A stretch of 64,000 bases of DNA from Microvirga sp. (GTDB taxonomy: Bacteria; Pseudomonadota; Alphaproteobacteria; Rhizobiales; Beijerinckiaceae), in assembly GCF_014699075.1 (NCBI RefSeq), contig NZ_JACXAB010000004.1:62001-126000 (forward strand), in the 5' to 3' direction. Shown one piece after another: positions 23,628 to 58,829 of the stretch; within the stretch, counting starts at the first letter, position 1, and every line of letters begins with the position of its first letter. Made by a program: the position numbers and the translations under genes. The notes beneath the pieces were generated by a model that worked only from the letters and a program-made list of their open reading frames with translations, was not told where the DNA came from and did not search any database.

Positions 23628-23678
23628 AGATGGCTCCCTAAACGTGAAGGCGGATCAAGTGGACGGGCCGGCGCCTCC

Positions 23679-24155: not shown

Positions 24156-24161
24156 GACGCG

Positions 24162-24665: not shown

Positions 24666-25657
24666 GTGTTCGACCCTCGTCGCGACACGCACCGGAAGCC
24701 GATGTGGCTCGACGATGTGTCGACGGGCTGCGCATGCCGGGCGGCAGGCCGGTAGCGGCGGCAGTAGTTCGGCGCGCATAGGTGCGAGCCGCCCTTGAGC
24801 ACCTTGCGCGGAATACGGACTTGCGGCTGGCGCGGATCGTAGCTGTCGGCCTCGCGGCCGCCGCGCGGGTTCTCCGGAATGCAGCAGGCCTTAGACGCGT
24901 CATTGGGATGCTTCGGGGCGTACCAGTCCGAAGTCCATTCCCAGACGTTGCCGATCATGTCGTGAAGGCCATAGCCGTTGGGCGGGAAAGCGGTGACCGG
25001 CGAGGTGCGCTCGTAGCCGTCCTCGCGCTTGTTCTGGAACGGGAACGCACCTTGCCAGATGTTGGCCATGTGCCGCCCGCCCGGCGTGAACTCGTCGCCC
25101 CAGGCATACGCGGCGCTGTCGAGCCCGCCGCGGGCGGCAAACTCCCACTCGGCTTCGGTCGGCAGGTCCTTACCCGCCCAAGCCGCATAGGCTGCGGCAT
25201 CCTCGTAGGCGACATGCACCACCGGATGGTCGTCGAGCCCCTTGATCGAGGATTTAGGCCCGTAGGGTCGGCGCCAAGTTGCGCCGAAGGTGAAGGCCCA
25301 CCATTGGCTCCAGTCGCTTAGGGAGACCGGATAATCCGGTGGGCTGAAGACGAGGGATCCCGCCTTGAGCATTTCCGGCAAGGCGCCGGGATAATCCTTC
25401 GGATCGGGCTTGCGCTCCGCTACGGTGACATGGCCGGTCGCGTCGACGAAACGTCGGAAGTCCTGGTTGGTGACCGGCGTCCGATCGATCCAGAAGCCAT
25501 CGACGGTAACCCGGTGGACGGGAGCCTCCTCGGGGTAGTGCTTGTCCGAGCCCATGCGGAACGTGCCGCCCTGGATCCACGCCATGCCGGTATACGGCTG
25601 CTCGGCCCGTTTCGAGCTTGGTCTGGCGTCGAGGAGCGTCATCGCCATTTTCCTCAT
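24662..25657 (-). CDS. Formylglycine-generating enzyme (sulfatase-modifying factor)
   Basis: The 331-residue enzyme oxidises the active-site Cys of type I sulfatases to formylglycine. It shows the FGE-sulfatase fold: [65 protein letters not shown] and, near the C-terminus, [20 protein letters not shown], which holds the paired catalytic cysteines. Its substrate is very probably the arylsulfatase two genes downstream. The start is coupled to the aquaporin stop (4-base overlap); an ATG at 25642 with GAGG upstream is an alternative that would shorten it by five residues. Confidence 0.95.
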
Positions 25658-41643: not shown

Positions 41644-41976
41644 TTGATGGAATCGTCCCCAAACCGGTCTGAAACAGCCCGGTTTGGGGAAAGGGCCGCG
41701 ATATGGCGCTGCCTTGGGCAATTAAATCGTGCGAGCTACACCGATCCTTCCGCCCTCGCCGCCGATGCCACGATCCTCGACGGATGGATGGAACACTACA
41801 TGCCCATCCCCGTCCTCGTCGGCAGCGCAAATGGGCACCCGACCCTCGCCGGCAAGGGCAGGCTGATCCGAACCTCGGACCTTTGGGTGATGGCCGAGGA
41901 TCGCGGGCGTGCCCGTTCCATGGCTAGGTGGTATCGTCTCGGCCGGCCGCTCGAGGCCGAGACGACGCACTCCTGA
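41644..41976 (+). CDS. DUF6634 family protein
   Basis: The 110-residue frame carries LDGWMEHYMPIPVLVGSANG and GRLIRTSDLWVMAEDRGRAR followed by WYRLGRP, the conserved features of DUF6634 proteins, short proteins common in Methylobacteriaceae with unknown function. The 5' part lies over a strong 12-bp inverted repeat (41656-41690), so the real start may be further downstream. It is followed 11 bases later by the mosaic antitoxin-like gene. Confidence 0.55.
   Translation: MMESSPNRSETARFGERAAIWRCLGQLNRASYTDPSALAADATILDGWMEHYMPIPVLVGSANGHPTLAGKGRLIRTSDLWVMAEDRGRARSMARWYRLGRPLEAETTHS
41656..41690. repeat. Perfect inverted repeat, 12-bp arms
   Basis: Arms TCCCCAAACCGG (41656-41667) and CCGGTTTGGGGA (41679-41690) are separated by 11 bases. 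It is directly followed by a segment (about 41693-41740) that reappears at 44459-44505. It could be a terminator for the upstream protease or one end of a mobile element. Confidence 0.75.
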
Positions 41977-44273: not shown

Positions 44274-44615
44274 GTGATCCTCATCTACCTGCCGACATCA
44301 GAGGCGCGCAATCCTCGTCGAGTGCAGCGGCAGATTAGTGAAAAGCCATGTCATTGGAAATCGGCCCGATTTTTCGATCGGGCCGAGCAGTTGCGTCAGT
44401 CGGGCACAGCGGAGCAGTGCATCCTATTTGAGTACAGGGCCGACCTGTTAAGCAAATCGGGCCGAGATATAGCTGCTTTGGGCAATTATATCGTGTGGGC
44501 CACAGTGACCTACACCCGTGGCGAGAGGCCAAAAGAGGGCACCCTAGCCCCCGGCGGCTCGGTGAAGGCCAAGGAGGGCATCGACTTCCATGTTATTCCA
44601 ACTAGCGAGTCGTAA
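44274..44615 (+). pseudogene. Probable C-terminal remnant of a multi-ubiquitin domain protein
   Basis: The last 40 or so residues (ATVTYTRGERPKEGTLAPGG, then SVKAKEGIDFHVIPTSES) match the end of bacterial multi-ubiquitin proteins, which finish with a tyrosine-rich strand, an xGxL-type turn and VKxGMxFxVTxxxxS. The first 65 residues of the frame (from 44274) have no ubiquitin character, and the DNA just before the match (44459-44505) is shared with 41693-41740, so an insertion or recombination seems to have replaced the 5' part. The stop overlaps the start of the E1-like gene by 26 bases, as expected for a coupled partner. Confidence 0.5.
44361..44386. repeat. Perfect inverted repeat, 10-bp arms
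   Basis: Arms TCGGCCCGAT (44361-44370) and ATCGGGCCGA (44377-44386) enclose six bases. It lies inside the frame of the multi-ubiquitin remnant, upstream of the shared segment, which suggests that this part is not original coding DNA. Confidence 0.7.
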
Positions 44616-45765
44616 TCCTGACATCCAGAAGTTGCTCGACCGGGGCTACGCGCTCCGGCTCGACAGCAACTACCTCGTGGTCCGCGACATCCCCTACCTA
44701 GATGCCGCGGGCGACCTGCGGTGGGGCGCGATCGTCACCACCATGAAGGATATCGATGGCACCCGCGTCGCGCCGAATGACCACCAGGTGTTCTTTGCGG
44801 GTGGCGTGCCCTATGGCCTGAATGGCAAGCCCATCCCGTCTTTGGGCAGCGGCACGGCGAGCGTCCCGCTGGCGAAAACCGACGTCGTCGTCGAGCGGTC
44901 CTTCTCCAACAAGCCGCCGCACGGCCTTCCGGATTTCTTCGTTAAGATTGAACACTACCTAACGATCCTGTCCGGGCCTGCGCGCCACCGTTTTTCGGAA
45001 GCGAACCCTTTCACCTTCAACGTCGACGACGATGCCGGCCCGGAGAGCGTCTTCCATTTCCGCGATACGCTGACCAGTCGTGCACTGATCGGAGACCTGT
45101 CGGCAAAATTCAATGGCCAGGACGTCGCCGTCATCGGACTAGGGGGCACCGGCGCCTATGTCTTGGATTACCTCGTCAAGACGAACGTCGACGGGATCCG
45201 AGGCTTTGACCCGAAGCCGTTCCACGTCCACAACGCCTTCCGTTCCCCGGGACAGTTGCTGCAGGACGAGCTCGGCAAGCCGAAGGCCGAGGTCTACCAG
45301 AGGCGCTACGAAACATTTCGCAAGGGCCTTAAGCTCGAGGCCAAGGCGATCGATGGCACCTGCGACGCTGATTTCGCCGGAGTGACCTTCGCCTTCGTCT
45401 GCATCGACAGCGGCAGCGCGCGCGCTGACATCTTCGACCTGCTTATCCGTCTGAGCATACCCTTCGTAGATGTCGGTATGGGGCTTGTCCGTATCAACGG
45501 CGCCCTCGCTGGCATGGTCCGCACCAATGTGCTGCTGCCCGGCGAAGCAGAGAAGGTCCGCAGCAAGATGCTGATCCCTCTCACCGATCCACCCGGTGAC
45601 GAGTACCGCACCAACATCCAAATCGCGGAGCTGAACGCACTCAATGCGAGCCTCGCCATGCTGCGCTTCAAGCAGCATTGCGGATTTTACGCACAGGCGC
45701 AGCCAGCGTATCATCTGCTGATGAATACCGCGCTGCTCAAGCTGTTCGTGGAACCGACCGAATGA
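44590..45765 (+). CDS. ThiF/E1-like ubiquitin-activating adenylyltransferase with DUF6791-type N-terminus
   Basis: The 391-residue protein has an N-terminal domain (about 1-150; NPDIQKLLDRGYALRLDSNY, HQVFFAGGVPYGLNG) of the DUF6791 type. A ThiF/E1 domain follows with the nucleotide motif VAVIGLGGTGAYVLDYL near 180 and FHVHNAFRSPGQLLQDELGK containing the Arg that contacts ATP, then CIDSG and FVDVGMGLVR. E1-like proteins of this kind adenylate the C-terminus of a ubiquitin-like protein. It is flanked by a multi-ubiquitin remnant and a DUF6527 gene, the usual neighbours. AAGGAGG lies 12 bases before the ATG. The gene appears intact. Confidence 0.88.
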   Translation: MLFQLASRNPDIQKLLDRGYALRLDSNYLVVRDIPYLDAAGDLRWGAIVTTMKDIDGTRVAPNDHQVFFAGGVPYGLNGKPIPSLGSGTASVPLAKTDVVVERSFSNKPPHGLPDFFVKIEHYLTILSGPARHRFSEANPFTFNVDDDAGPESVFHFRDTLTSRALIGDLSAKFNGQDVAVIGLGGTGAYVLDYLVKTNVDGIRGFDPKPFHVHNAFRSPGQLLQDELGKPKAEVYQRRYETFRKGLKLEAKAIDGTCDADFAGVTFAFVCIDSGSARADIFDLLIRLSIPFVDVGMGLVRINGALAGMVRTNVLLPGEAEKVRSKMLIPLTDPPGDEYRTNIQIAELNALNASLAMLRFKQHCGFYAQAQPAYHLLMNTALLKLFVEPTE

Positions 45766-46166
45766 GTGATTTCCGCCTCGAGAAGGTCCATTATGTCCCG
45801 CAGGCATTGGAACCCGGCGTCGTCTACGCGTCCGACGAGTACAAGGTCGCGGTGCACCTTTGCGCGTGTGGCTGCGGCAGCAAGGTGCCAGTTTCCCTCG
45901 GCCCGGCCGGATGGACCCTGACCGAGCGGAACGGACGGCCGACCATCCGCCCTTCGATCGGCAGCGGACAACTGCCGTGCCGCTCCCACTATCTGATCAC
46001 AGAAGGGCAGGTCGATTGGGCACCCGCCATGAGCGCTGCGCAGACAGTCGCAGCACTGAAGTCAGATCATCGCAGGCGGGAAGCGCATTACCGCGAGGCT
46101 GCCCGCAATTCGCGGTGGTGGGTTCGGCTGTGGAAAACGTTCCAACGCTGGGTTGGGCTAGTATAG
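45762..46166 (+). CDS. DUF6527 family protein of ubiquitin-like locus
   Basis: The 134-residue protein carries the cysteine-rich motif HLCACGCGSKV and then CRSHYLITEGQVDW, the diagnostic features of DUF6527, likely a small metal-binding domain. A basic, tryptophan-rich C-terminal tail follows (about 105-134). The ATG at 45762 overlaps the stop of the E1-like gene by 4 bases, so both are translated together. The role of DUF6527 in bacterial ubiquitin-like pathways is not known; a ligase-like or substrate-adaptor role would be speculation. Confidence 0.85.
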   Translation: MSDFRLEKVHYVPQALEPGVVYASDEYKVAVHLCACGCGSKVPVSLGPAGWTLTERNGRPTIRPSIGSGQLPCRSHYLITEGQVDWAPAMSAAQTVAALKSDHRRREAHYREAARNSRWWVRLWKTFQRWVGLV

Positions 46167-46557
46167 GCGTCAGAGGGCTCACATTAAGAATTTTCTTCAC
46201 CGTCGATATTCAACCGACTGCGGTCGGATATCTTCTATGCCTATCTCACCGCAGATCGAAACGATAGATGTCAACTCGCAATAGAAAGTAGGCTCTCCAG
46301 GGAGTTGAACATACTTGTCCGCTTTCCTCAGTCGACGAGTCAAAGCCGTCAGTCAGCTCACGGCCCCATTGCCGTCATTCCAGAACACGCGCCCGAATAG
46401 CCGTTCCCGGCGCATCTGAGGCATTGCGGCATGGTCGGCTTCGAACACCAGCTGGCATGAAGAGGTGCCACCCGGCTCTTGCAATGCTGTTCGTTGGTTG
46501 TGACGTTTCCAATGCAAGCCGCAAGGATGAAGGTAACGTTCCGGATTAATCGCGAAG

Positions 46558-46587
46558 AAGCCCGCCTCAAGAGGTGAGGCGGGCTTT
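46558..46587. terminator. Rho-independent-like hairpin
   Basis: A perfect 11-bp stem, AAGCCCGCCTC (46558-46568) with GAGGCGGGCTT (46576-46586), encloses seven bases and is followed by a short T run only. It lies 390 bases after the DUF6527 gene, in a 790-bp stretch (46167-46960) in which I recognise no gene. Being symmetric, it may terminate in both directions. Confidence 0.7.
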
Positions 46588-46904
46588 GGCATCATTTGAG
46601 GCGCGCTATAGGTGATTGTGAGCGCCCTCATTAGCTAGCTGATGTGGCGCCCATATTCGCCCTTTGCCCGAAGAAATTAGCGAGCTATGCAGAATGTCTA
46701 AGCTCCCATATCGAGGGAGAATGTCGTCTAATTAATAGTCGCAGAGGCGAACCTGTAGCTCAAATCGCTGCCGTACGACATACAGCATGCTTTTGAGCTA
46801 CATGGAATCGGAGCTTGGGCCAGTGCCAGCGCACAATCTCTAGGGGTGTTCCCGTGCGATGCGTGTACCGAGGACTTTCAACTCGTAGTTCTGAAGTAGC
46901 CCCC

Positions 46905-46969
46905 GAATAGACCGAACACGATCTCCCACCTCGCTAGGAGATAGGAGTAGAGTTAGGTCTATGACTGGT
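46905..46969 (+). repeat. Imperfect inverted repeat, left copy
   Basis: This copy matches the reverse complement of 47167-47231 at about 46 of 65 positions, with an identical 11-base core CGATCTCCCAC followed two bases later by CGCTAGGAGATA. Each copy also contains a small internal hairpin (ATCTCC ... GGAGAT). The pair encloses an IS66-type orfA fragment. Confidence 0.7.
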
Positions 46970-47165
46970 TCTTGCTCGAAGTTAGAGGTTCTTGACGTAC
47001 CGCAACGCCGTCGCCGCTGGACGGCCTCCGAGAAGCTGTCCATCGTCCAGGAGACCTACGAATCCGACGCCACAGTCAGTCTGGTCGCCCTCCGGCATGG
47101 GGTGGCGCCCAACCAGCTCTTCCGCTGGCGCAAGCTTGCTGTTCAGGGGGCGCTCACCGGAGTGG
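46961..47165 (+). pseudogene. IS66-type accessory protein (orfA/TnpA) fragment
   Basis: The frame encodes RRRRWTASEKLSIVQETYES and LVALRHGVAPNQLFRWRKLA followed by VQGALTG, the DNA-binding N-terminal domain of IS66/IS3-type orfA proteins. Similarity stops at about 47158 where the inverted repeat begins; the rest of the IS (orfB and transposase) is absent. It is an inactive relic trapped between two copies of the inverted repeat, just beyond the end of tniQ. Confidence 0.7.
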
Positions 47166-47166
47166 G

Positions 47167-47231
47167 GCCAGTTATGGATTGGATGTTAGTATTATCTCCT
47201 AGCGCTGTGGGAGATCGTTTTTGGTTGATTC
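47167..47231 (-). repeat. Imperfect inverted repeat, right copy, overlapping end of tniQ
   Basis: Reverse-complement partner of 46905-46969. The last codons of tniQ (stop TAG at 47199-47201) lie inside it, so the repeat either is part of the transposon end or was fused to the tniQ 3' end by recombination. Confidence 0.65.
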
Positions 47232-48839
47232 TGGTACTGCTGTGCTTCTTCTGATTTCATTAGAAGTAGAGGTCTGCTTAAGGCGTTTCTTGTATGGCCC
47301 TCTTTTACCGTAGGGGTTTTTTCTAGCACTCGACGAGGCAAGCGGCCGAACATCGGCAACTCGGACGAGGATACCAGCCAAACCAGGTGCTTCAGCAAGA
47401 CGTCCACTGCACTGGATCCTCTGTTCCATCAAGGCGGTTACGAGCGCAACAACTTTCACGTGGAGCGCCTTGGGTGCGTCAGCGATTGAGATTTGCTCCT
47501 TATCAATCCGCGAAACAGTACCAGAAACGCCAGCCAATCTCTCCAGCCATTCCTCGACGTCCGTCCGTCGTAACAAATAAAGGCTCTTCTCCCCCATTAC
47601 GCCCCCTGGCACCCATATCGGCAAAATTCTCGCCCTGATAAGCTTTCTCACCATGGCGATTCCAACACCCAAGACCTGAGGTAACCCCTCAAGTCTTATC
47701 GAAGACTCAAGATCCGCTACAATCGCAGCTAACGTTTCATTGTTGACCTTGACCGGACTACCTTTGCGCTTTTCCGGGCGAATTCCATCCTGCAGTTTCA
47801 GAATCTTTCGGAGTGTTCCAGGTCTCATCCGGCATTCTCTTGCCGCCTCCGTCAGCGTTACGCTAGGGCGTTTCCTGGGTAGTTTGGGAAACACGTCTCT
47901 CGGCACCTGAAACTTTTGTAGAGCATTGTCCAATACAATCTGCGCAAGGGCAGGAGAGAAGTTCTCCCCACCACGCCAAGATAGCCACCGGTAGAACCAT
48001 CCATAAGCAGTTAACATGCTTGCCGGCCTTGGACCGCCTGTCGAGAGGAAGCCCTCGTAAGTTCTATCGAGTGCATCTCCAATCCGATGCTCCAGGATCA
48101 CTCTAAATCCATGGGCGCGTGCGGCCGCCCGCTCAATACTTAGGTCATCGATCTCCACCCAACGATCGGCATATCCATGCAGGTCAAGTGCAGCGATACG
48201 CTCGATCATGTCGATGGCTTGAGTCAGCGGAAGATTCTGCAATTCAGGTGGGGTCCCAACGCCTTGTAAAAGCCCGAACTGAGCGACGATCCACCGATCC
48301 AGCGCGAGAATCTCCGGTGAGGCGGTTTCTCGTGACACAGTGAAAACCGATCCATCTGTGCAGACGCGGCATTTCGTAAGTAACCCATCTTCCCAAGACA
48401 GTTTCCCGCCGCAGCTACACAGGGAAACGAGCCGCCGCCCGTGCCATGGACACGCTTCGAGGAAGGTCAAATCCCACCAAAATCTATGATGAAGTGACAC
48501 GGCTAAGCATTCTGGGCAGACGCGGCGTGAAGCTATGAGTACATCACGGTTCAGTCTCAGTTCATGACCGCGGATCAAAATGGCTTCTCCGCGCATGCGA
48601 CGGTAAGCAGCCTGCTCAAGAAGTTCAAGATCGCAGTGAGCGATGTCAGCGAGTGCCGGGAGTTCCTGTCCGAAACGAACGCGTCGACACGAGACTCCCG
48701 TCATCGTTCGCATCATAGCCATACGCGCGACCCCATTTATGTCAGAGAGCCTCAACAAAAGGCCATGTGGAGGCTCGTCGGAATACAAATCGGGAGTCCA
48801 GCGTGGTGGCATCCACATTGAACTGCTGAAGTGTTTCAT
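47199..48839 (-). CDS. tniQ: TniQ/TnsD-family target-site protein of a Tn7-like transposon
   Basis: The 546-residue protein starts like TniQ (MPPRWTPDLYSDEPPHGLLL...SDINGV) and has the zinc-binding cysteines RRVCPECLAVSLHHRFWW, CPWHGRRLVSLCSCGGKL and TKCRVC. The longer C-terminal part (from about 320) contains predicted helix-turn-helix segments (SVTLTEAARECRMRPGTLRK). TniQ links target recognition to the TnsC ATPase. Its size lies between short TniQ and true TnsD, so it may recognise a DNA site itself. The ATG overlaps the TnsC stop by 4 bases. Confidence 0.88.
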   Translation of the reverse strand: MKHFSSSMWMPPRWTPDLYSDEPPHGLLLRLSDINGVARMAMMRTMTGVSCRRVRFGQELPALADIAHCDLELLEQAAYRRMRGEAILIRGHELRLNRDVLIASRRVCPECLAVSLHHRFWWDLTFLEACPWHGRRLVSLCSCGGKLSWEDGLLTKCRVCTDGSVFTVSRETASPEILALDRWIVAQFGLLQGVGTPPELQNLPLTQAIDMIERIAALDLHGYADRWVEIDDLSIERAAARAHGFRVILEHRIGDALDRTYEGFLSTGGPRPASMLTAYGWFYRWLSWRGGENFSPALAQIVLDNALQKFQVPRDVFPKLPRKRPSVTLTEAARECRMRPGTLRKILKLQDGIRPEKRKGSPVKVNNETLAAIVADLESSIRLEGLPQVLGVGIAMVRKLIRARILPIWVPGGVMGEKSLYLLRRTDVEEWLERLAGVSGTVSRIDKEQISIADAPKALHVKVVALVTALMEQRIQCSGRLAEAPGLAGILVRVADVRPLASSSARKNPYGKRGPYKKRLKQTSTSNEIRRSTAVPESTKNDLPQR

Positions 48840-49951
48840 TTGCCACGCGCTCCAAATGCTCTGCGAGTTTCAAGACCTTTTGACTGCCGCTTCTCGGCTT
48901 TGTCTATCCGGTTTCTCCGAGCAAGAACAAGATTTGTACGCACCTCTTCACTGTCTACGCAGGACATCAAAAACGGATTTTCAGCATCTGAAACATTCAA
49001 TCTATCGCGCAAATATTCTGCGAACACCTCGACAGTAAGGCTCTGGTAGCCTTTCTCGATCGCATAGCGGGTAGTTAATCGAACGACAATTGCAATTCTA
49101 CCTTCAAATCCGTCGCAAAAAATTCCCAATGGAACGAAGACATTTGGCGTATCTAGGGATGAACCTTTGTCGAAGGGTAACTCTTTGTTCAACGTGGTAC
49201 AAAAGCGACCGAGTGCGGCCAGCGGATCCGATGTAATCTCAAGTGGTCGAACATGGTACACTTCGCCGCCCAGCCATTCCACCTGACTGTTGGCATCTTT
49301 GATCTCGGTTGTATGTTCAAGTCCGACACACAACACCTGCACACGACCAGTTTTTGCCAACACTTTAAAAACATCAGCTGCGTCGTAAGCGGCAGCTGTC
49401 TTGCCCTGTTCGCAGATGTGATGAGTATCGTCGAATACAATGAGGCGTGTCGCCTGTCCATATAACTGGCGGCCCAGCGCAAGCTGGCGCTCGACGAACG
49501 TAGCTGTTCGCGGAAGACGAACATTGAAAGCTACGAGAACATCATTAAGGAGGAGATTAAAAGTAGGGGGGCCTTTCGGCACATAAATCTTCACAATTGG
49601 GCGTTCGAGTCCGATAGGTGTTTCTACGATCACCGAGACGATCGCCTCAGTCTCGCGGCAATCTCCGAGATTTTGCGCAACAACTTTGCCATCCAATTTG
49701 TCCGCAACTTCCTCGATAATCTCGTTCACGGCTGTTGTTTTACCAGCTCGTGTCTCTCCGACTAAGAACGCTATTTCACCCTCGGGCGCAGTACGGTAGC
49801 CACTCATGATACTTCGGATAAATTCCATCGACTTAGTGAGCGAGGGCGTCATAGCTATGAAGCGCCCAATATTCGAGAGGCGATCATTTGAATTGCTACT
49901 GCTCCAATCCGTTCCGTTTTCAGTATTGCCATTTTCAAGCTTCGAAGTCAT
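48836..49951 (-). CDS. tnsC: TnsC/TniB-type AAA+ ATPase of the Tn7-like transposon
   Basis: The 371-residue ATPase has Walker A in AFLVGETRAGKTTAVNEI, Walker B in LIVFDDTHHICEQ, and an Arg-rich C-terminal end. TnsC forms ATP-dependent filaments on target DNA and recruits the TnsAB transposase. GAGG lies 5-6 bases before the ATG at 49951; an ATG 12 bases earlier is possible. It is 17 bases downstream of tnsB. Base composition is clearly lower in GC than in the chromosomal genes of the left half. Confidence 0.92.
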   Translation of the reverse strand: MTSKLENGNTENGTDWSSSNSNDRLSNIGRFIAMTPSLTKSMEFIRSIMSGYRTAPEGEIAFLVGETRAGKTTAVNEIIEEVADKLDGKVVAQNLGDCRETEAIVSVIVETPIGLERPIVKIYVPKGPPTFNLLLNDVLVAFNVRLPRTATFVERQLALGRQLYGQATRLIVFDDTHHICEQGKTAAAYDAADVFKVLAKTGRVQVLCVGLEHTTEIKDANSQVEWLGGEVYHVRPLEITSDPLAALGRFCTTLNKELPFDKGSSLDTPNVFVPLGIFCDGFEGRIAIVVRLTTRYAIEKGYQSLTVEVFAEYLRDRLNVSDAENPFLMSCVDSEEVRTNLVLARRNRIDKAEKRQSKGLETRRAFGARGK

Positions 49952-49968
49952 GGCGCACCTCACATCGC

Positions 49969-52146
49969 TTAGTGGTTTCGATGACGTCCGGGATATGTCG
50001 CTGGAACTTCAGTAGGCGAACCGGTGTTCCTATCCGTGTGTGTTGGCTTATTGCCTGTGTTCTCGCTGTCGGACCGACCGGGGCGGATCTCGCCGGGATA
50101 ATAGCCATCACCGTCACGCGGCGGGTAAGGATTAGTCGGATGTATTATGACATCGCGGTAGGGACCATTCGGATCCGGAGGCGGTGAAGTAGAAGGGGCA
50201 TCAATCTCATGCGAGCTGATTGGCAAGGAACTCGCGTCCGGGTCGATCCGATCGCTGTGGATATGCTCAACGGGACGCGACCCTTCCGTTATAAAGGCGG
50301 CAATGTGCTTCGGAACAACACCATGTCTTTTCCGGACACTGTCTACAAAATCCCATATCCGTTGCAATCCCTGGGCTAGTTTCAACTCGTAATCGTCATC
50401 GACAACCTGAGCATCATCAAGGATTTTTCTAAGGTGCTCGTATTGGCGCAACGTTAGCAACTCGATTGAACTCTCCGCCATTAGCTGACCTTCGACCCAC
50501 GTGTGGTCGTCGGGGTCGAGAATGTAGGCCGTCCCCAGATCAAGCGGGTCAATTCGAATGAGAACATCACATGAGAAGCCGATTCGGTTCCGCAATGCTC
50601 GGAACGCATTGGAGTTCCAGCGGAGTTTATTGTAGCGTACTCCGTCGTCGCGAAGTTTACGGGGAACAACTTTACCGACTAGAGGTGCGATGAGTTCCGA
50701 CGGCGGCGCAGGTTTCTCACCAACTTCGTCCATCCCTTCGCGCCACCGTTCCGCAGGTATTTCTCCAGTGCCAGGGTGCTTCTCCCTGTTGTGGTGATCA
50801 ACAACCCAACGAGTAGTCAGATAGCGAACATCACTAATTGAAAATTTCGCTTCCTTCTGTGAATCGTATCGCTTGCGCATTTGAGGGTTGGATAGCGTTG
50901 TGCCATCCAACAAATGGAAGAGCTCCTTGTTTATACGTTTGAAATTGCTCTCAACTTTTCCCTTTTTGTCTCCGCTAGCCCTTGGCAGTTGCAGGATCCT
51001 CATGTTCAAGCAGCTTGCTGTAGCTGTCATCGATGCAGAGAGAAATTCCGGCCCTTGATCAATAGCAAGGCAATCGGGCGCTCCGAAACACGGCCAGTCA
51101 AACACAAAGGGTGCCTGTCCGTACTCAGCCCACTTCCGAAGTTCCTGCTCTTTCGGCAAGACGGCATGGCGAAGTGCCTCCATTACTGAAACCCATGAAG
51201 GAGCGGCGAATGAGATCGTGAAGCCGATGATCATCCGCGAGTAGCGATCAATAAGGACAGTAAAATACGGTTTCCCGAGAACAACTCCATTCTCCGCTAC
51301 AATGACGTCAAGTTGCGTGTGATCGGCCTCAACCTCGGCCAAAGGGTAATCGCCTGGAGGACCTGCGCCTTTTAAGCGCAATAACCGATCGGCCTCATGC
51401 CTTCCTTCCCGTTTTACGAGTAGTTCCCACTCTTCGCGCTTAGCCAGTGTGTTCTCGACAATCTTGCGCCCGATGACGTTCTTAGCTTTCCTCGGTAGCT
51501 GTCGATGTTCAGCGTTCGCACGGCAACGAATGCGGGACCGTGCTCGAAGTAGGGTTTGCCGAACACTACCCTTCAGCCGTGTAGCGTAGACTTCATCAAT
51601 CGCATTGTTGATCTCCTCAATTACCCAAGGCTCGTATCGCTCCGCTCGGTTTCCCCTGGCAGGTGTATCGGAAACGAGAGCTCTGATATCGAATCCAGCG
51701 GCCAGCCACCTCAAGTACCAGGACCGACCTTGGCGAAAGCTGGGACAATCAATCAGGTTACCTGGATCTCCTTGACTCGCGCTAGCTAGCGCAGGATCAA
51801 CCCATTGCTTCTTGTCTCGCCACTGAGCTGGGAGATCATAGATTTTCCTGACATAAGCATAGCGTGCCTTCGCGATGATCTGCTGTGAGGTTGAGAAGCT
51901 ACCAAAATCTCTTTTCAGATTTGCTAAGACCGAAGGCGGCAATGCTTCGTATTGAGATTCGGAGACCATCTTTTGGCTTCGAACAAGCTCGTTCTGGCGA
52001 CCGAAGCTTAGCGATATCTCGGAGCCATCATCGGCAGCCGTGAATATGCGACCTATCGTTGTCATTTCTCCAACGACGTAAAGACGGCCGTGGACACGGA
52101 CTTTCGAGCCGCACACGAGACGTGGTGGCGCGGTGTGGACCGTCAC
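49969..52146 (-). CDS. tnsB: TnsB-type DDE transposase of the Tn7-like transposon
   Basis: The 725-residue transposase has N-terminal DNA-binding helices and a retroviral-integrase-type core with the acidic triad in VEADHTQLDVIVAENG, CLAIDQGPEFLSASM and KGKVESNFKRINKELF. It binds the transposon ends and joins them to the target. Translation begins at GTG 52146, inside the TnsA stop (4-base overlap ATGTGA), with AAGGAG 8 bases upstream. The C-terminal tail is rich in Pro and polar residues and probably contacts TnsC. Confidence 0.93.
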   Translation of the reverse strand: MTVHTAPPRLVCGSKVRVHGRLYVVGEMTTIGRIFTAADDGSEISLSFGRQNELVRSQKMVSESQYEALPPSVLANLKRDFGSFSTSQQIIAKARYAYVRKIYDLPAQWRDKKQWVDPALASASQGDPGNLIDCPSFRQGRSWYLRWLAAGFDIRALVSDTPARGNRAERYEPWVIEEINNAIDEVYATRLKGSVRQTLLRARSRIRCRANAEHRQLPRKAKNVIGRKIVENTLAKREEWELLVKREGRHEADRLLRLKGAGPPGDYPLAEVEADHTQLDVIVAENGVVLGKPYFTVLIDRYSRMIIGFTISFAAPSWVSVMEALRHAVLPKEQELRKWAEYGQAPFVFDWPCFGAPDCLAIDQGPEFLSASMTATASCLNMRILQLPRASGDKKGKVESNFKRINKELFHLLDGTTLSNPQMRKRYDSQKEAKFSISDVRYLTTRWVVDHHNREKHPGTGEIPAERWREGMDEVGEKPAPPSELIAPLVGKVVPRKLRDDGVRYNKLRWNSNAFRALRNRIGFSCDVLIRIDPLDLGTAYILDPDDHTWVEGQLMAESSIELLTLRQYEHLRKILDDAQVVDDDYELKLAQGLQRIWDFVDSVRKRHGVVPKHIAAFITEGSRPVEHIHSDRIDPDASSLPISSHEIDAPSTSPPPDPNGPYRDVIIHPTNPYPPRDGDGYYPGEIRPGRSDSENTGNKPTHTDRNTGSPTEVPATYPGRHRNH

Positions 52147-53012
52147 ATTTCATCTCCTTGGTTCGATGGTTGAACCCGAAAGGGCGTTGTTCTGCTGAAA
52201 CGACAAGTTCTATCAAGTCGAATGTGGCCGAGTCGATCAAGGCGGATCGCGAGTTCGAGGGCATTGCGTGGTTGCCCAATCGCCGCGCCAATATCGCCCA
52301 CGATGGGCGTAGAAGGAAGGTCTCCGAGTGCGAGGATTGCCTTCAGGAGTAATCCTCGGTCTCCGAACGGCCCAGAATGCCTATGAATGAGCTTCGCATT
52401 GTATAGCATCGGCTGGATGCGGATTTCGTGCTCAGTTACAAGACGAAACTTGTAGCCGTGCTCTCGGGCTGCGCCTTCATAGGCGTCTAGTTGTGCTCTG
52501 ATAGTTGCCGCTCGAACTGGCTCTTCCGTGTGAACGACCTCGAGAAGCTTCGCTTCGACAAGCTCGCGTAATCCATCCTTTCTTTCGATAAGATAATCTG
52601 GAGTCCACCGGCTAAGCCGCCCACAGATGAGGATCTCGAGCGAGAACGGTTGGGAAATTATATTGGTGATATTTTCATCTTGTGCGTCTGTGACGAGTGC
52701 GAAGTCGCACGCTAGCAAACTCTCACCCGCGATGACTTTCCCTTTAAGTCGAGGCAACGGTACCTTACCCCTGTAGCCATGGTGACCACGGCGGCAAATG
52801 TTTCGGCTCTCCGAACCTCGGATCAATTCCGGCTTCTTGGTAGGTCGGGCACGCGCTTCTGGTTCTCGTGAACGCGTTTCTTCGAGGCGACGTTCGTCTG
52901 GTTCCCATGTTTTCATTTCGGCAACGGGGTGATTTCGATACCTAACTTCGTATGTAGATGGGCTGTGACAATTGCCGTGTTTGATTTCGCTCAATGTTGA
53001 CATCACCTTCAA
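52143..53012 (-). CDS. tnsA: TnsA-type endonuclease of the Tn7-like transposon
   Basis: The 289-residue protein contains a PD-(D/E)XK nuclease core: ESLLACDFALVTDAQDENIT with early Glu, ISQPFSLEI, RWTPDYLIERKDGLREL with the catalytic Asp and VEAKLLEV with Glu-Lys, then a helical C-terminal part. TnsA cuts the 5' strands at the transposon ends, so TnsA plus TnsB allows cut-and-paste movement. The first ~95 residues are basic and unlike typical TnsA, with CRRGHHG. It is the first gene of the tnsA-tnsB-tnsC-tniQ operon; start at 53012 or 53003. Confidence 0.87.
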   Translation of the reverse strand: MKVMSTLSEIKHGNCHSPSTYEVRYRNHPVAEMKTWEPDERRLEETRSREPEARARPTKKPELIRGSESRNICRRGHHGYRGKVPLPRLKGKVIAGESLLACDFALVTDAQDENITNIISQPFSLEILICGRLSRWTPDYLIERKDGLRELVEAKLLEVVHTEEPVRAATIRAQLDAYEGAAREHGYKFRLVTEHEIRIQPMLYNAKLIHRHSGPFGDRGLLLKAILALGDLPSTPIVGDIGAAIGQPRNALELAIRLDRLGHIRLDRTCRFSRTTPFRVQPSNQGDEM

Positions 53013-53306
53013 TCCACAAGTATCTGATGATCCAGTGAACTTATTATCTGACCCGCAGTCCTATACTGTGAAGCCCATCGGCAGTCGGTGAAAATATCAT
53101 CATAAGCTGTTAGGCTTCTTTGGCTGTCATCTACCTCCATTCGCGAGCCTCATGACGAGTGGGTAGGCACCACGTTCGCCGATTTCGCGTGGTTTGGGAT
53201 CTCGTCGGCAGGTGTGTCGAGATTGAGGTCTGACATGTCCCGTGCTGTGGAACCTGTCGCGCCAATATCCGTGTCTCTTTCTTGCGCGCTCTCGCTCCCG
53301 TGGGAG

Positions 53307-53912
53307 TTAGTATCGATATGAAAGCGGTATTCTGGCGGAATCTCCCCGCTCAGGTTCATTACGATTGGCGTTGCCTCCAGATGTCTCGGGTAAGTCCCGA
53401 CTGACTGTCCTAAGAGCAAAGCCTCGGGAAAATTTTGTGTTAGCTCGTAGAGCTTTCTGAAGTGCTCTAACCGTCGACGGGTCAGGAACGCTAAAGGGAA
53501 GGCAATACCCGACGATCAGTCCAGTAGAACGGTCAATTACTGCGTTGACACTTGGGGGAACGAAAACACCGTGGGTTCCGGAGGTAAGATCGCAATCCAC
53601 TGGCTCTGCGGCGGAATGCAGATTGGGACGCTGGTGACCCGCGGCTGATCCGAGGCGTGTTTCTGGTAGTTCTGTGACAAGCTGTGCGGTGTTGGGGCAT
53701 TGAGTTGGCACATGGCCACTTGCGTGACATGCGTTCTCTTGTTGCCGTTGATCCGCCGAAGCTTGATCAAGATTGGCAAGTTGCGTTGCGATCTTTCCTC
53801 GGACACAGCCGGCTGACAGGCGAACTGGAAGGTCTGTCATCTGCTCAATAGCTGTAAGGTGGTGCATGATGCGCTCCAAGAAACAGAGGCCAAATCTCTG
53901 GCAGTATGCCAA
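53307..53912 (-). pseudogene. Degenerate DDE (Mu/TnsB-type) transposase remnant
   Basis: The frame contains SGTHGVFVPPSVNAVIDRST then GLIVGYCLPFSVPDPSTVRA, which aligns with the integrase-core strand and first helices of TnsB (VLIDRYSRMIIGFTISF). The other two acidic residues are not found in frame. A second frame (53150-53419) may hold its continuation, suggesting a frameshift. It appears to be a fragment of another transposase unrelated to the intact tnsB, just upstream of tnsA. Confidence 0.55.
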
Positions 53913-54217
53913 GGTCTGCGCTCATTGGTCCGGCGGCGAAAACTTGAGCAGCAGTTTGGCAAATGGAGTTCTCGCAAACTCAGTACATTGACGGTTGCGT
54001 GCTCGTGGCACTGATGTCGAGGTAGGTTGATTACGGTCAGCACCTCATCGGGACCGTAGGTTACGACAATTGTTCGCCCTGACGCCATGATGTGAGTTGC
54101 GCCCTGGCATTGATCAGCATCGCTCAACCAAGGTATCGCTTGGATCTTGATTATGTGGCGGCAACCCTCAGTGTTGTCGTCCACTTCAAGATACTCACCG
54201 AAGCGTTCCAGAGGCAT
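53837..54217 (-). CDS. Hypothetical protein, uncertain
   Basis: The first 70 codons (MPLERFGEYLEVDDNTEGCR ... GRTIVVTYGPDEVLTVINLP) have protein-like composition, while the last part is Cys/Arg-rich and overlaps the transposase remnant in another frame. I do not recognise it; the true gene may be shorter or the frame may be chance. Confidence 0.3.
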   Translation of the reverse strand: MPLERFGEYLEVDDNTEGCRHIIKIQAIPWLSDADQCQGATHIMASGRTIVVTYGPDEVLTVINLPRHQCHEHATVNVLSLRELHLPNCCSSFRRRTNERRPWHTARDLASVSWSASCTTLQLLSR

Positions 54218-55183
54218 GCGGCACTCCCAAGTCAGAAGTTCGCCAGCTACGCACGCGCAAAGACATTTCGTTGAGTGGCAATATAGATCACATCTTGTCG
54301 CGAGTAAATAAAGTAGATATTCTCAAAGACCAAAGTGGATATTCTTAGTTCCTAAAATAACAAAAAGATTAATACGAATTTTTGGGCAGACTGTCGAGCA
54401 TTAAAGCTATGACGCCTAAGTTGTTGACTTTGTGATAGAAAAAATTCCGAAAAATGAGACGCTATTATTTTTGCGGAGTGCAGGTGGGGGATTTAATTGG
54501 CGGATGCTTGGAAGGAAGATTTGTGCAAGGTAGAACCTTATTCAGAGCTTGTAGAGGAGAATCCAACGCTTTAGACGATCATCCTATGATATTGGCCCTG
54601 GTAACAGGCAGGTCGCCATTCGTCGGAGTTTTTTGAGCAGCGAGTTTTTCTGCGTCGAAAAGTGTCCGTGGAGCAAAAAAAAGCATTTTCACGTCAGGAT
54701 CCGCGATGACGAAGCTTCGAGCTTCGGAGTTTTTCTGAGCAGGAAATTGAAGCGGAAAACGAGGCTGAATTTTCGAGAGATGCCATGAGCTGATCCTGCT
54801 TTATGAATTTTCGTGAAAGGTCACCCTTTTGGTTTGGCAAGATGTTCGGAGCTTGAGGAGATTTGAACTGAAATTCTATCGGCTCCGATGGCCGCCTCTC
54901 GTTGAGAAGTGATGCTGAATCCTGCTGAGCCTGAGGGACTTCGAAGTGCTGTTCAACTGGCTCGGTACCACACCGCAGTGAAAAGTGGACCTGGCTTTTT
55001 CAGGTCCAAGTTGGACATATCACAGGAGAGCACTGGATCGAACCAAAGAGAGAAAATGGACGTTTGGACGTATTGCTCTACGGTCGTTCGCGCTCTCCGT
55101 CGCGGAATTCCCAGATGTTCAGACTAGCCGAAATTACGGAGAATTTCGGATCCCAATTTTTGCGAATAATTGTTGAAAGCAGC
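54218..55183. other. AT-rich non-coding stretch
   Basis: Nearly 970 bases without a convincing gene and with the lowest GC of the window, especially 54.27-54.50 kb. It contains a 22-bp-spaced direct repeat (54310 and 54332), and two copies of a CGGAGTTTTT-GAGCAG-like segment (near 54625 and 54725). It could hold transposon-end sites, a guide or regulatory RNA, or remnants. Confidence 0.55.
54310..54345 (+). repeat. Direct repeat with 22-bp period
   Basis: AAAGTAGATATTCT (54310-54323) and AAAGTGGATATTCT (54332-54345) differ by one base and start 22 bp apart, a spacing like that of adjacent TnsB-binding sites at Tn7-like ends. I could not find matching copies on the other side of the operon. 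Confidence 0.55.
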
Positions 55184-55861
55184 CTACAGCCTATGTCCAA
55201 TCCACCTAACGCGTCCGAAGATTTGACACTGTGACGCTCCGGAGATTGAGATCTGAGGAGCAGTTTGCCGTTCGGCGCTCAGCGTCCAGGATGCGCCACC
55301 GTCCGGTGAGAAAGCCCGTCGGATGGTGACATGCTCACCGGCCCCGATCAGAAATAAGTTTCCCTGTGAGAGGCGCTTTTCCGTCAAGTGAATTAGCGCA
55401 TCGTCCGATACATTGATGACTGGCGCCATATCAGAATCAGGTACCGTGAATACGGCAGTGTCGCTCGCGGTTAGGCCGAGATCGTCGAGCAACTGTATTG
55501 CAAACAGAGAATAATGGCCTGTTGGCTGCAGGTCTCTAGCAACTCCGGGCGCTCGTGATACTGCCACCCGAGGAATCAGCGCTGTAGTTTGCTCCCACTG
55601 TACCGACGGCATTCCTTCGCCTGTGACAAGCCACCTCCAACTGACGCCCGTATTGTCCGCGATAGCGGACAAAATTGCAAGTGAGGCTGGCTTGCCGCCT
55701 AAGAGGTCATAGATCCAAGTTTTCGAAACGCCGACCTTTGCGGCAAAAGAACGAACATCAGAGTCTCCAATGAGCGCTCTAATCCGAGTTGTTATTTGCT
55801 CGTTGAGCGCTTGGACGCGGTCTTTGCTCAGTCGGCTTTCCTGCGCGCGGGATCTGGACAA
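55184..55861 (-). CDS. XRE-type repressor with S24 (LexA-like) C-terminal domain
   Basis: The 225-residue protein has an N-terminal XRE helix-turn-helix (about 22-82; RSFAAKVGVSKTWIYDLLGG) and a C-terminal S24 peptidase-like domain (from about 115) that usually mediates dimerisation and RecA-stimulated self-cleavage; ADMAP-like SDMAPVINVSDDALIH corresponds to the nucleophile region, with Ser followed by Asp-Met. Such proteins keep phages or mobile elements silent. A palindrome TTGTCCG-N6-CGGACAA lies 32 bases before the start codon. A TetR gene is divergent. Confidence 0.85.
   Translation of the reverse strand: MSRSRAQESRLSKDRVQALNEQITTRIRALIGDSDVRSFAAKVGVSKTWIYDLLGGKPASLAILSAIADNTGVSWRWLVTGEGMPSVQWEQTTALIPRVAVSRAPGVARDLQPTGHYSLFAIQLLDDLGLTASDTAVFTVPDSDMAPVINVSDDALIHLTEKRLSQGNLFLIGAGEHVTIRRAFSPDGGASWTLSAERQTAPQISISGASQCQIFGRVRWIGHRL
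55653..55672. promoter_or_regulatory. Operator-like palindrome inside repressor gene
   Basis: TTGTCCG-N6-CGGACAA, with the same arms and the same six-base spacing as the palindrome upstream of the gene. It may be a second binding site used for repression by looping or roadblock, or a coincidence. Confidence 0.5.
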
Positions 55862-55892
55862 AGGAGTTGACCTTCAGCAATTCTGTGCCAGA

Positions 55893-55912
55893 TTGTCCGG
55901 TGTCGCGGACAA
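55893..55912. promoter_or_regulatory. Candidate operator of the S24-type repressor
   Basis: TTGTCCG-N6-CGGACAA lies 32 bases upstream of the repressor start codon, in the 207-base divergent region shared with the TetR gene. Repressors of this class usually bind such palindromes and regulate their own synthesis. Confidence 0.6.
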
Positions 55913-56068
55913 GGGCTGGCGCTACGGAGTGATTCTCGAATCCTTCCTGAAGTCGCCTGTGCGTCAAGGCTTTCCGCCCCAAAACTGACTGTCGCTACCT
56001 TGGCTTGAACATCTTAGTTCGAGCAGAGGCTTATAATGATCTGTTATCACACATTGTGGATCTAAAAA

Positions 56069-56761
56069 ATGGAACAGGATGATCGGATCAGTGACCACAT
56101 TCTGGACGTTGCCGAACGAGCGTTTCGCCAGCATGGCCCAGACTGGATATCGCTCTCAGGTGTGGCGCAAGAGTTGAAGGTCCCGAAAGCCATTCTCAGC
56201 TTCTACGTACCTGGAGATCCGAGGCTTAGGGAAGGTATCGTCGGAAGGAGGCTCGACCAAATCCTTGCTCAACTCTCACCGATCTCTGATGCTGCTACTG
56301 GTGCTACCGCCGAAATACGCCTTTGTGCTGCCCTGAATGCCCTCGTTCGCTTGAGCCGCATATTTCAGCGGGAGGATCCAGCGCTGTTTGCCGTCTACCG
56401 TGCCCTGTCACACGAGCAAGCTTCGGTGATCACCAAATTCCAAGGCGATTTAATCAGAAAATTCGAAGCGATTATTGCACAGGGAATCCAAGCGCGCGAA
56501 TTTTCCGATTTCGATGCATTTCATGCCAGCTGGGGGACACTGAATGCGATTGCACCATTTTATGAGCCCCGGTTCGGCCGAGACTGGTCGGCGCCGGGCG
56601 AGCATCGAGCTTATAAACATGCGCGAGCCTTGATCGTGCAGGGGCTCGCTGCCATCGTAAATGCAACGGGCTCTCAGGCTGAGGCTCAAAGGAGAGCTGC
56701 TCAACGACTTGGTCTCGTTCTTGGTTCGGACCGCGACGACTCGCCCAAGGATTCGCGATAG
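56069..56761 (+). CDS. TetR-family transcription regulator
   Basis: The 230-residue protein has an N-terminal TetR helix-turn-helix (ILDVAERAFRQHGPDWISLS ... VAQELKVPKAILSFYV) and a helical ligand domain (about 70-215). The recognition-helix pattern is less strict than usual (AILSFYVPGDPRLREGIV). The ligand and targets are unknown. It is transcribed away from the S24 repressor and precedes a hypothetical gene by about 25 bases. Confidence 0.8.
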   Translation: MEQDDRISDHILDVAERAFRQHGPDWISLSGVAQELKVPKAILSFYVPGDPRLREGIVGRRLDQILAQLSPISDAATGATAEIRLCAALNALVRLSRIFQREDPALFAVYRALSHEQASVITKFQGDLIRKFEAIIAQGIQAREFSDFDAFHASWGTLNAIAPFYEPRFGRDWSAPGEHRAYKHARALIVQGLAAIVNATGSQAEAQRRAAQRLGLVLGSDRDDSPKDSR

Positions 56762-56787
56762 GCGAGCGGTTGTAGATCGTGCAAGCC

Positions 56788-57276
56788 ATGGATTCCGACG
56801 GGCGGCTTGAAGCAAACGCAGTTCTTGATCGATTGGTGGCCGAGGGAACGACGTTCTGTCGAGACGACGCCCGACGCCTGATCGAACTAATCCCAGTGGC
56901 TCCCAATTCTCGCTTTTCATTTCGAGGAAAAATCAGTGGTCGAGGGCCCCATCTGAAGGGCCATGCAGCTGGGGTTGGTGAGGTTAGACTTAAAGGCGAA
57001 GAGTACGAAAAGCACTTTGCACTGAACACTCCAACCTCTCACAGAATTGGCGGATATGTGGTTACGCACACCCCTGGCCAGATCGCAATCGAACTCATGT
57101 GGAGTGACACCAAGATCGATCAAACAGGTCAAAGCTGCCTGCTCACGTATGACATAAACACCAGTGAACCAGACGCGATGCTGCTCGCAAAGCAGGCAAC
57201 GTTGACTTTGCTCTTTATGAGTTTTTCGTATGTCTCCTACATACCTTGGAAAGCGGGAGTACCTTCTCGGCCGTGA
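56788..57276 (+). CDS. Hypothetical protein downstream of TetR gene
   Basis: The 162-residue protein starts with a helical N-terminus (DGRLEANAVLDRLVAEG) followed by a beta-rich domain (FSFRGKISGRGPHLKGHAAG, IGGYVVTHTPGQIAIELMWS). There is no signal peptide and no motif I recognise. It lies close behind the TetR gene and may be its partner or target. A GTG nine bases earlier is an alternative start. Confidence 0.5.
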   Translation: MDSDGRLEANAVLDRLVAEGTTFCRDDARRLIELIPVAPNSRFSFRGKISGRGPHLKGHAAGVGEVRLKGEEYEKHFALNTPTSHRIGGYVVTHTPGQIAIELMWSDTKIDQTGQSCLLTYDINTSEPDAMLLAKQATLTLLFMSFSYVSYIPWKAGVPSRP

Positions 57277-57349
57277 AAGGAGTGCGTCAATTCCTAGGCC
57301 GAATGCGTTCTGAGACTCTATCGAGCGAGAACTGCCGTCGTCTCCGCTC

Positions 57350-57694
57350 GTGATGTTCAACAACGCGATTTGCCGCGCGAATCTGATCAACGAAGGTGCG
57401 GGAGTGACCGAGATCTTCAGACCTTACACGGCGCAGATGGTCGATCCCTTGGTTGACCACGCGATCACCCATCTCGAAGAAAAGATTGAGAAGCTCAAGT
57501 CTCTCCAAGGAGCCGAGCCGGAGATCGCTACAGTCATTGGGAGGACAAGCGAGGTCTTCGGTAATCGGGGCGTACTTTGGCTAGTCCAGCATAACCGAGT
57601 GTTAGAGGCTACTCCTCTGGACCTGATCCTCCGAGGTAACACCGACCTAGCCCTCCTGCTCCTTATCCAGATCGAACATGGAGTATACCCATGA
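57350..57694 (+). CDS. Xre/MbcA/ParS-type antitoxin domain protein
   Basis: The 114-residue protein ends with SEVFGNRGVLWLVQHNRVLE and TPLDLILRGNTDLALLLLIQ, the toxin-binding domain of Xre/MbcA/ParS antitoxins (formerly DUF2384). The first 55 residues form a helical region without an obvious helix-turn-helix. Partner toxins of this family are usually RES-domain enzymes that consume NAD; none is present. The HAD-fusion gene follows by overlap of frames (57678/57735). Confidence 0.72.
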   Translation: MMFNNAICRANLINEGAGVTEIFRPYTAQMVDPLVDHAITHLEEKIEKLKSLQGAEPEIATVIGRTSEVFGNRGVLWLVQHNRVLEATPLDLILRGNTDLALLLLIQIEHGVYP

Positions 57695-57734
57695 GGGCAG
57701 CGACAGGGTCGAGCTAATGGATTGGCTGAGCATG

Positions 57735-58829
57735 AGCGACGTTCGAGCAGTCTGTTTTGATGCTTTCGGAACCTTGGTCGAGATCACCGACAAGCGGCAG
57801 CCGTTTCGAACTCTGCTGCGGGAAGGCGTGAAGGGTATCACGGCTGACGAGGTCCTGACGCGGCCGCTCAGCCTGCGGGAGGTCGCCGCAAGAGTCAGCC
57901 AAGAGCTCGGGGAGGACGGGTTAACAGAGCTGGAAAGGGATCTGCAGGCCGAGTGTGCCTCCATTCGTCTTAGGCCCGGAATGGCGACAATCTGGCAAGC
58001 CCTGCGCGCCAGAGGTCTGCGGATCGGCGTCTGTTCGAACCTGGCGCTTCCTTATGGGGGCCCGCTTCTCTCCACCCTGCCTGACCCTCCCGATGCTGTG
58101 ATCCTGTCCTACGAAGTGGGGCTGGTGAAACCACAGCCTGCCATATTTCATCTCGTGTGTGATCGGCTGGGGTGTCGGCCGGCGGAGATCCTGTTCGTGG
58201 GGGATACGCCGTGCGCCGATGTTGAGGGGCCACAAGCGATCGGCATGCCGGCGATGCTCATCTCAGAGTTCGAAGAATACACCAGGCGCGAAGTTCGTGA
58301 GCTTGGAAAGCTCTCTGAAGGCTTCCCCGCCTCCATTCAGGGAGCGGGATACGGCTCCGGCCTTTTGAATATGCCGCCCAGTGATACTGGAAAGAGGGCC
58401 CCGGTCATCAAAGGCTCGGGCCTCGGGCCATTGATCAGTGTCGAGGAGGGTCGAGCGCGACTGGCCGAGATCACTGTTGAAGATGACTCGACAAACTGGG
58501 CGGCATCCGAACTCTTCGGAACCGACAGCATAGCGGAGAGACTCGGTGTATCAGTCGCAACACTCGAAGGGTGGCGGGATGACGGTCAGGCCATTGCCTT
58601 CCGCAAGGACGCCGATGGGTTCGTCTATCCGGAGCGCCAGTTTGAGCAGTCCCGACCGATCGAAGGCATCGACCGGGTTGCGGGGTACTTCCCGTTCCCT
58701 GAGGAGGCGTGGGAGTGGTTGGTTACGCCCAATCAGTACACCGATAGTGCAGCGCCGATCGACCGGCTGCGGTCAGGGCACATCGAAGAGGTCGTTCGGG
58801 CTGCGGAAGGTGTGAATGACTACCAGTGA
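57735..58829 (+). CDS. HAD hydrolase fused to MbcA/ParS-type domain
   Basis: The 364-residue protein has an N-terminal HAD phosphatase (about 1-200) with motif I VCFDAFGTLVEI, motif II GVCSNLALPYGG and motif IV VGDTPCADVEG, followed by a linker and a C-terminal part with a short helix-turn-helix (DSIAERLGVSVATLEGWRDD) and the antitoxin-type toxin-binding pattern EEAWEWLVTPNQYTDSAAPI. A fusion of an enzyme to this kind of domain is unusual. It precedes and overlaps the DUF433 gene. Start at 57735 gives the motif near the N-terminus; an ATG 18 bases earlier is possible. Confidence 0.75.
   Translation, partial: SDVRAVCFDAFGTLVEITDKRQPFRTLLREGVKGITADEVLTRPLSLREVAARVSQELGEDGLTELERDLQAECASIRLRPGMATIWQALRARGLRIGVCSNLALPYGGPLLSTLPDPPDAVILSYEVGLVKPQPAIFHLVCDRLGCRPAEILFVGDTPCADVEGPQAIGMPAMLISEFEEYTRREVRELGKLSEGFPASIQGAGYGSGLLNMPPSDTGKRAPVIKGSGLGPLISVEEGRARLAEITVEDDSTNWAASELFGTDSIAERLGVSVATLEGWRDDGQAIAFRKDADGFVYPERQFEQSRPIEGIDRVAGYFPFPEEAWEWLVTPNQYTDSAAPIDRLRSGHIEEVVRAAEGVNDYQ

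Follow-up and report, generated by a model that had tools for sequence, protein, structure and literature searches.

A Tn7-like element carrying a predicted type II CBASS splits the ubiquitin-like gene of an E1-DUF6527 operon in Microvirga sp.

A split ubiquitin-like gene beside intact E1 and DUF6527 genes

We describe here an operon for ubiquitin-like conjugation in Microvirga sp. (assembly GCF_014699075.1), one gene of which is interrupted by a transposon. The operon was found in a stretch of 64,000 nucleotides, in the following simply called the window, which corresponds to C46:62001-126000, C46 being a contig of 438,775 bp in a 6.6-Mb draft assembly of 101 contigs. On its forward strand the window encodes an intact E1-like adenylyltransferase of 391 amino acids (44590-45765), consisting of DUF6791 and ThiF and identified by Pfam, NCBIfam and alignments. 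Pfam matched PF20590 (DUF6791) with E 3.6e-39 and PF00899 (ThiF) with E 8.9e-11, and in NCBIfam the protein falls in PRK06153.1-2 (513.6 bits versus a cut-off of 419). The last 4 bases of this gene (45762-45765) overlap an equally intact gene for a DUF6527 protein of 134 amino acids (45762-46166, forward strand; PF20137, E 2.3e-22) with the invariant residues C34, C36, C38, C73 and H76. The guanine-plus-cytosine (GC) content of the locus is 61%.

Upstream of E1 lies an open frame (44274-44615, forward strand) that is chimeric: 44274-44504 belong to a transposon end, and 44505-44615, stop codon included, form the 3' half of a single-domain ubiquitin-like (Multi_ubiq) gene and encode the last 36 residues of its protein. 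In Pfam this frame matched PF14452 at profile positions 34-68 of 69 (E 0.012, 16.3 bits; cut-off 24.5). A family profile of 82 positions was built from the proteins of nine relatives (loci L011-L019), and a search of the whole genome with it at E <= 10 returned exactly two matches, both on one strand of C46. The front half of the gene (positions 4-47) lies at C46:34711-34845 with E 2.1e-15, and is also located by PF14452 (C46:34723-34845). The rear half (positions 45-82 of 82) lies at C46:106502-106612 with E 1.4e-11, a value that, in a whole-genome search, shows the resemblance to PF14452 not to be due to chance. The two halves are complementary, the front one being situated 71.66 kb upstream of the rear one and outside the window. 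The same profile matches the solved multi-ubiquitin protein 9cd2 (E 4e-13), and no further copy of the family was found with it in the host genome at E <= 10. A candidate second ubiquitin-like gene on contig C24 (PF14452, E 1.3) was rejected as a chance match, as the family profile did not reproduce it. The chimeric frame itself is probably not a functional gene; with no more than the final 36 residues of the domain, its product is not expected to adopt a ubiquitin fold. Separately, a 33-residue open frame (L001:1347-1448) just upstream of the front half has some likeness (13 bits, without a Pfam match) to the initial strands of another ubiquitin-like protein; its tail may derive from a DUF2188 gene, such as stands upstream in L012.

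The junctions define the event to the base. Tn7-like transposons generate a 5-bp target duplication and have TGT...ACA ends with repeated transposase-binding sites nearby. Here, the duplication is GTGAC, with its left copy at C46:34840-34844 and its right copy at 44505-44509. The letters read ...CAGTGAC followed by TGTACC on the left, and ...GGCCACA followed by GTGACC on the right. Thus, the left half of the gene ends in GTGAC and is followed by TGTACC...TAATTGCCC, and the right half is preceded by an inverted TGTGGC...TAATTGCCC end and starts with GTGAC. The right terminal repeat (44480-44504, reverse strand, TGT...TAATTGCCC) pairs with the left end at C46:34845-34869; both begin with TGT and share TAATTGCCC at equal offset. 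Among 200,000 random pairs from the region, a same-offset run of at least 9 bases, the length common to the two ends, occurred in 41. Short 11-12-mers are repeated at the right end and a 26-bp stretch is common to both ends, these repeats being counted without a shuffle control. When the flanks were joined computationally into an empty site, one open frame resulted that resembles the gene of the relatives. Three close relatives have one uninterrupted gene that takes up the alignments of both halves, the blastn alignments of the two flanks overlapping by 5 (L011), 5 (L012) and 6 bases (L013); in L011 and L012 the overlap is exactly the 5 GTGAC bases.

Intact loci are present in other genomes. 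An E1 scan gave nine loci in named genomes and a family scan detected E1 in 20 of 397 genomes, host included. In total, 28 other loci were examined (L011-L019, L022-L039 and L057; 27 are distinct, L013 being identical to L022), nine of which (L011-L019) had also contributed to the ubiquitin-like profile used to score them. G031, with a fragmentary E1 (L040, L041), stands outside these counts, and of the plasmid records with a relative of E1, L057 is the one inside them. In 28/28 loci the ubiquitin-like match runs from model position 1-7 to 82, versus 45-82 in the host locus, and the frame ends at the E1 start in all 28. DUF6527 was detected in 29/29 loci, counting that of the host. Of these, 27 satisfied an automatic adjacency rule; the other two (L018, L027) have long stop-to-stop frames. 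The preliminary description of this DNA had recognised a ubiquitin-like conjugation locus of intact E1 and DUF6527 genes with a 4-base overlap, preceded by an end like that of multi-ubiquitin proteins. These points hold. Its reading would have been contradicted if related genomes never had ubiquitin-like genes beside this E1, but such a gene stood there in 28/28 other loci.

Neither E1 nor DUF6527 gives any indication of decay or relaxation. Protein alignments were made with 34 E1 and 31 DUF6527 rows picked from the listed matches. With the window sequence excluded from the count, E1 retains 46/46 columns invariant among 33 aligned relatives and DUF6527 19/19 among 30; at columns conserved to at least 90%, the window proteins match at 110 of 111 and 36 of 38, respectively. 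With L012 and L013 as outgroups, the E1 branch of the window has 18 replacement and 21 silent changes, that of L011 26 and 20. When PDB was searched for folds like that of DUF6527, the lowest E value was 0.58, and the VIA rows match chiefly its long helix. Promoters and terminators were no more numerous around the junction than in shuffled sequence.

The inserted element and the neighbouring Tn7-like operon

The inserted element spans C46:34845-106504 (71,660 bp, GC 64.4%), of which 1-44504 fall in the window. Its transposase genes stand at the left end and point towards it: tniQ (C46:35051-36910; TniQ, E 1e-12), tniB (C46:36907-38184; TniB, E 1.1e-16) and tniA (C46:38166-40475; Mu-transpos_C, E 2.8e-08, and rve). 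A search with most of TniA gave one other match in the genome, the tniA of the neighbouring element, at 25% identity. Adjoining the tniA of the inserted element is a gene for an AAA and M41 (FtsH-like) protein (C46:41569-43698) with IetA-like PADLOC matches.

The cargo includes a DNA cytosine methylase (C46:45343-46836), followed by genes for a CD-NTase (C46:46915-48129), a Cap2-like E1-E2 protein (C46:48126-49841; PADLOC profile PDLC00855, E 2.1e-214), a Cap3-like JAB protein (within C46:49919-50314) and a SAVED-2TM effector (C46:50311-51423). In a type II cyclic-oligonucleotide-based antiphage signalling system (CBASS), CD-NTase, Cap2-like E1-E2, Cap3-like JAB and effector genes stand in a row, and the last four genes together are predicted to be a complete-looking system of this type. 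Further cargo, in the window part, comprises a sulfatase with an FGE-type sulfatase-modifying protein, its activator (22065-25657), a KaiC-like protein and a trypsin-like protein, among others.

Inside the element there is a second right-end-like repeat (41716-41740, reverse strand), which can be aligned with the outer end for some 46 bp. Its flank reads CCGAT, without the target duplication, and it may be a remnant of an earlier end or of a merger of elements. DUF6634-like open frames were observed near the left transposase genes (C46:43810-44148, below the Pfam cut-off) and at this inner right end (41644-41976, just above it).

On the other side of the locus, a second Tn7-like operon of low GC content (52%) occupies 47199-53012 on the reverse strand, with tniQ (47199-48839), tniB (48836-49963), tniA (49969-52146) and a TnsA-like gene (52143-53012). 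At 46895-47241, beside this tniQ, a short HTH_Tnp_1 transposase fragment lies between imperfect 74-nt inverted repeats, and AT-rich direct repeats at 54642-54823 may belong to the end of this second element. When ends were looked for by comparing 46151-47200 with 53000-58700, the best shuffle outscored three of four comparisons and tied with the fourth; for C46:32000-34700 against 53000-58700, it outscored all four.

Origin of the split and fate of the operon

These observations lead to the following explanation. A resident operon of three genes, for a single-domain ubiquitin-like protein, an E1 with N-terminal DUF6791 and a DUF6527 protein, received in its ubiquitin-like gene a Tn7-like transposon, the present length of which is 71.66 kb, with duplication of 5 bp. 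This transposon bears tniA-tniB-tniQ at its left end and a predicted type II CBASS among its cargo. In the intact operon, judging by its family, E1 would most likely adenylate the ubiquitin-like protein at its tail, so that it can be passed on to targets. In the window the E1 and DUF6527 frames are still open, and the protein for E1 to activate can no longer be made. The pathway is therefore most likely dead, and because no other relative of the family was found in the genome, E1 is probably without a substrate, as the preliminary description had supposed. As the element carries a CBASS, one ubiquitin-related system was broken by a transposon carrying another. We hold this account of an operon interrupted by a CBASS-bearing element, with its pathway most likely lost, with high confidence. 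Directly observed are the split, both element ends with the duplication, the gene content and the intact relatives; that activity was lost, and what each protein does biochemically, we infer.

Three points weigh against this account. Insertion within a gene is less usual, the second right-end-like repeat means that the history of the element is not simple, and E1 has no excess of amino-acid changes, so that it may have been orphaned recently or may still be in use. The missing relaxation would equally agree with a recent insertion.

The second of these points bears on how the element reached its size. It is rather unlikely, in our view, that a shorter element inserted first and grew to 71.66 kb later, by gaining cargo or a second right end. 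The inner repeat ending at 41740 and the DUF6634-like frames near both ends would fit such growth; however, the duplication that matches the left end is seen at the outer end alone, the inner flank being CCGAT and not GTGAC.

The neighbouring operon offers another history, since the position beside tniQ had suggested to the preliminary description that the locus is or was transposon cargo. That the locus formerly travelled with the low-GC element at 47.2-53.0 kb appears unlikely. The tniQ of that element ends about 1 kb from DUF6527, and 114 of 72,556 plasmid records contain a relative of E1, so that loci of this type can be mobile. On the other hand, no end of the second element rose above shuffled sequence on either side of the locus, and the GC contents differ (61% versus 52%). 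The proposal of cargo was thus not supported; the Tn7-like element that did insert into the locus is another one than that to which the adjacent tniQ belongs.

We find it improbable that E1 and DUF6527 still have a working partner, be it a ubiquitin-like protein from another place in the genome or a part of the CBASS that landed in the operon. Such a use would agree with the complete retention of invariant columns and with branch changes in E1 that do not exceed those of L011, no decay being visible. But a recent insertion would leave E1 just as undecayed, the genome search at E <= 10 gave no other family member, and the CBASS of the element owns its E1-E2.

Regarding the choice of site, the idea that a family of CBASS-carrying TniQ transposons is directed to, or kept in, ubiquitin-like defence loci, so that the insertion was no accident, is very improbable. 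If true, one ubiquitin-related defence would displace another and the stranded E1 might be reused by the newcomer. TniQ relatives at E <= 1e-30 are present in 14 of the 397 genomes of the host's order, host included, and a ubiquitin-like match in the flanks (up to 1.5 kb) of TniQ loci was found in 1 of 15, namely that of the host. The other 14 loci are at most 40% identical, which makes this a weak test of the insertion pattern; their ends were not recognised. Targeting of ubiquitin-like loci is thus possible but unsupported, and the insertion may be a chance event.

An assembly misjoin, with the gene intact in the living strain, is hardly credible: the assembly is indeed a draft of 101 contigs, but both junctions lie deep inside a contig of 438,775 bp, and a misjoin is not expected to produce a 5-bp duplication, matching ends and transposase genes at the end. 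Finally, the preliminary description was right that the ubiquitin-like gene is broken, but its view of a degraded gene, with unrelated non-coding DNA in place of a lost front part, is practically eliminated. Within the window alone, the sequence upstream of 44505 is indeed unrelated to the gene. However, the view is refuted by the matching half, which was displaced along the contig, has GTGAC at its end as well and continues in frame into the rear half, together with the target duplication and the terminal repeats.

What seemed a degraded gene is thus a cleanly resolved natural knockout, in which E1 and DUF6527 are left without their ubiquitin-like partner. It provides an exact before-and-after insertion site, both ends of a large Tn7-like element that bears a CBASS, and a natural test for any role of E1 or DUF6527 without the modifier.

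Comparison with known systems

The type 6e operon, the Tn7-like transposon and CBASS as cargo are kinds already known (PMC8649781 for the last). What is new is this precise event, in which a ubiquitin-related system has come to lie within another; our literature search found no paper joining Tn7-like transposon insertion with ubiquitin-like genes, and the names DUF6527 and DUF6791 were not found in any paper of the open library searched.

The intact operon resembles type 6e and is related to the bacterial ubiquitination-like (Bub) pathway. According to Iyer et al. (2006; PMC1779556), type 6e consists of one to three Ub-like repeats beside an E1-like protein, plus a metal-binding, putative zinc protein; in a subset, the E1-like protein has an uncharacterised N-terminal domain in the place of JAB. 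Common features are a Ub-like protein beside E1, found whole in each of the 28 other loci and in two halves in the host, and an E1-like domain fused to an N-terminal domain, here DUF6791 with ThiF. The present operon differs in its single Ub-like domain and in the splitting of the gene. The companion motif is given there as C-x(3)-C-x(35-38)-H-x(2)-C, and DUF6527 has C34-x3-C38 and C73-x2-H76 with 34 residues between, thus a slightly different order and spacing. We infer that 'domain X' of that description is DUF6791 and 'Y' DUF6527.

A close counterpart is the plasmid locus of R. leguminosarum (NZ_CP016290.1, 549468-551291), annotated as multiubiquitin, ThiF and DUF6527. It has the same overlaps of 26 and 4 bases and an E1 78.5% identical, but is uninterrupted.

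Regarding the Bub pathway, BubCD chains are the top Foldseek matches of the E1 model, and the E1 profile matches BubCD with E 2e-06, behind TcdA (2.5e-08). However, only the E1 part aligns (model 164-391 versus BubCD chain 170-429), the DUF6791 part being barely covered. Citrobacter BubCD has another N-terminal region where the E1 of the window has DUF6791. This region is presumably the JAB peptidase domain (BubD), and a Pfam scan at E <= 1 of the E1 and DUF6527 proteins of the window found no JAB in either. BubB we take to be an E2-like protein; the three genes annotated for the operon in NZ_CP016290.1 do not include one, and no search aimed at it was made.

For the inserted element, Benler et al. 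(2021; PMC8649781) list CBASS as widely mobilised defence cargo of Tn7-like transposons. With the transposons described there it shares the tniA/tniB/tniQ core and the CBASS cargo, and it differs by being inserted in a gene and not in a safe site, and by its second, inner right end. The system on board, predicted from its genes, has the row of CD-NTase, Cap2-like E1-E2, Cap3-like JAB and SAVED-2TM effector in common with known type II CBASS, and is set apart by riding on the transposon that broke a resident ubiquitin-like gene.
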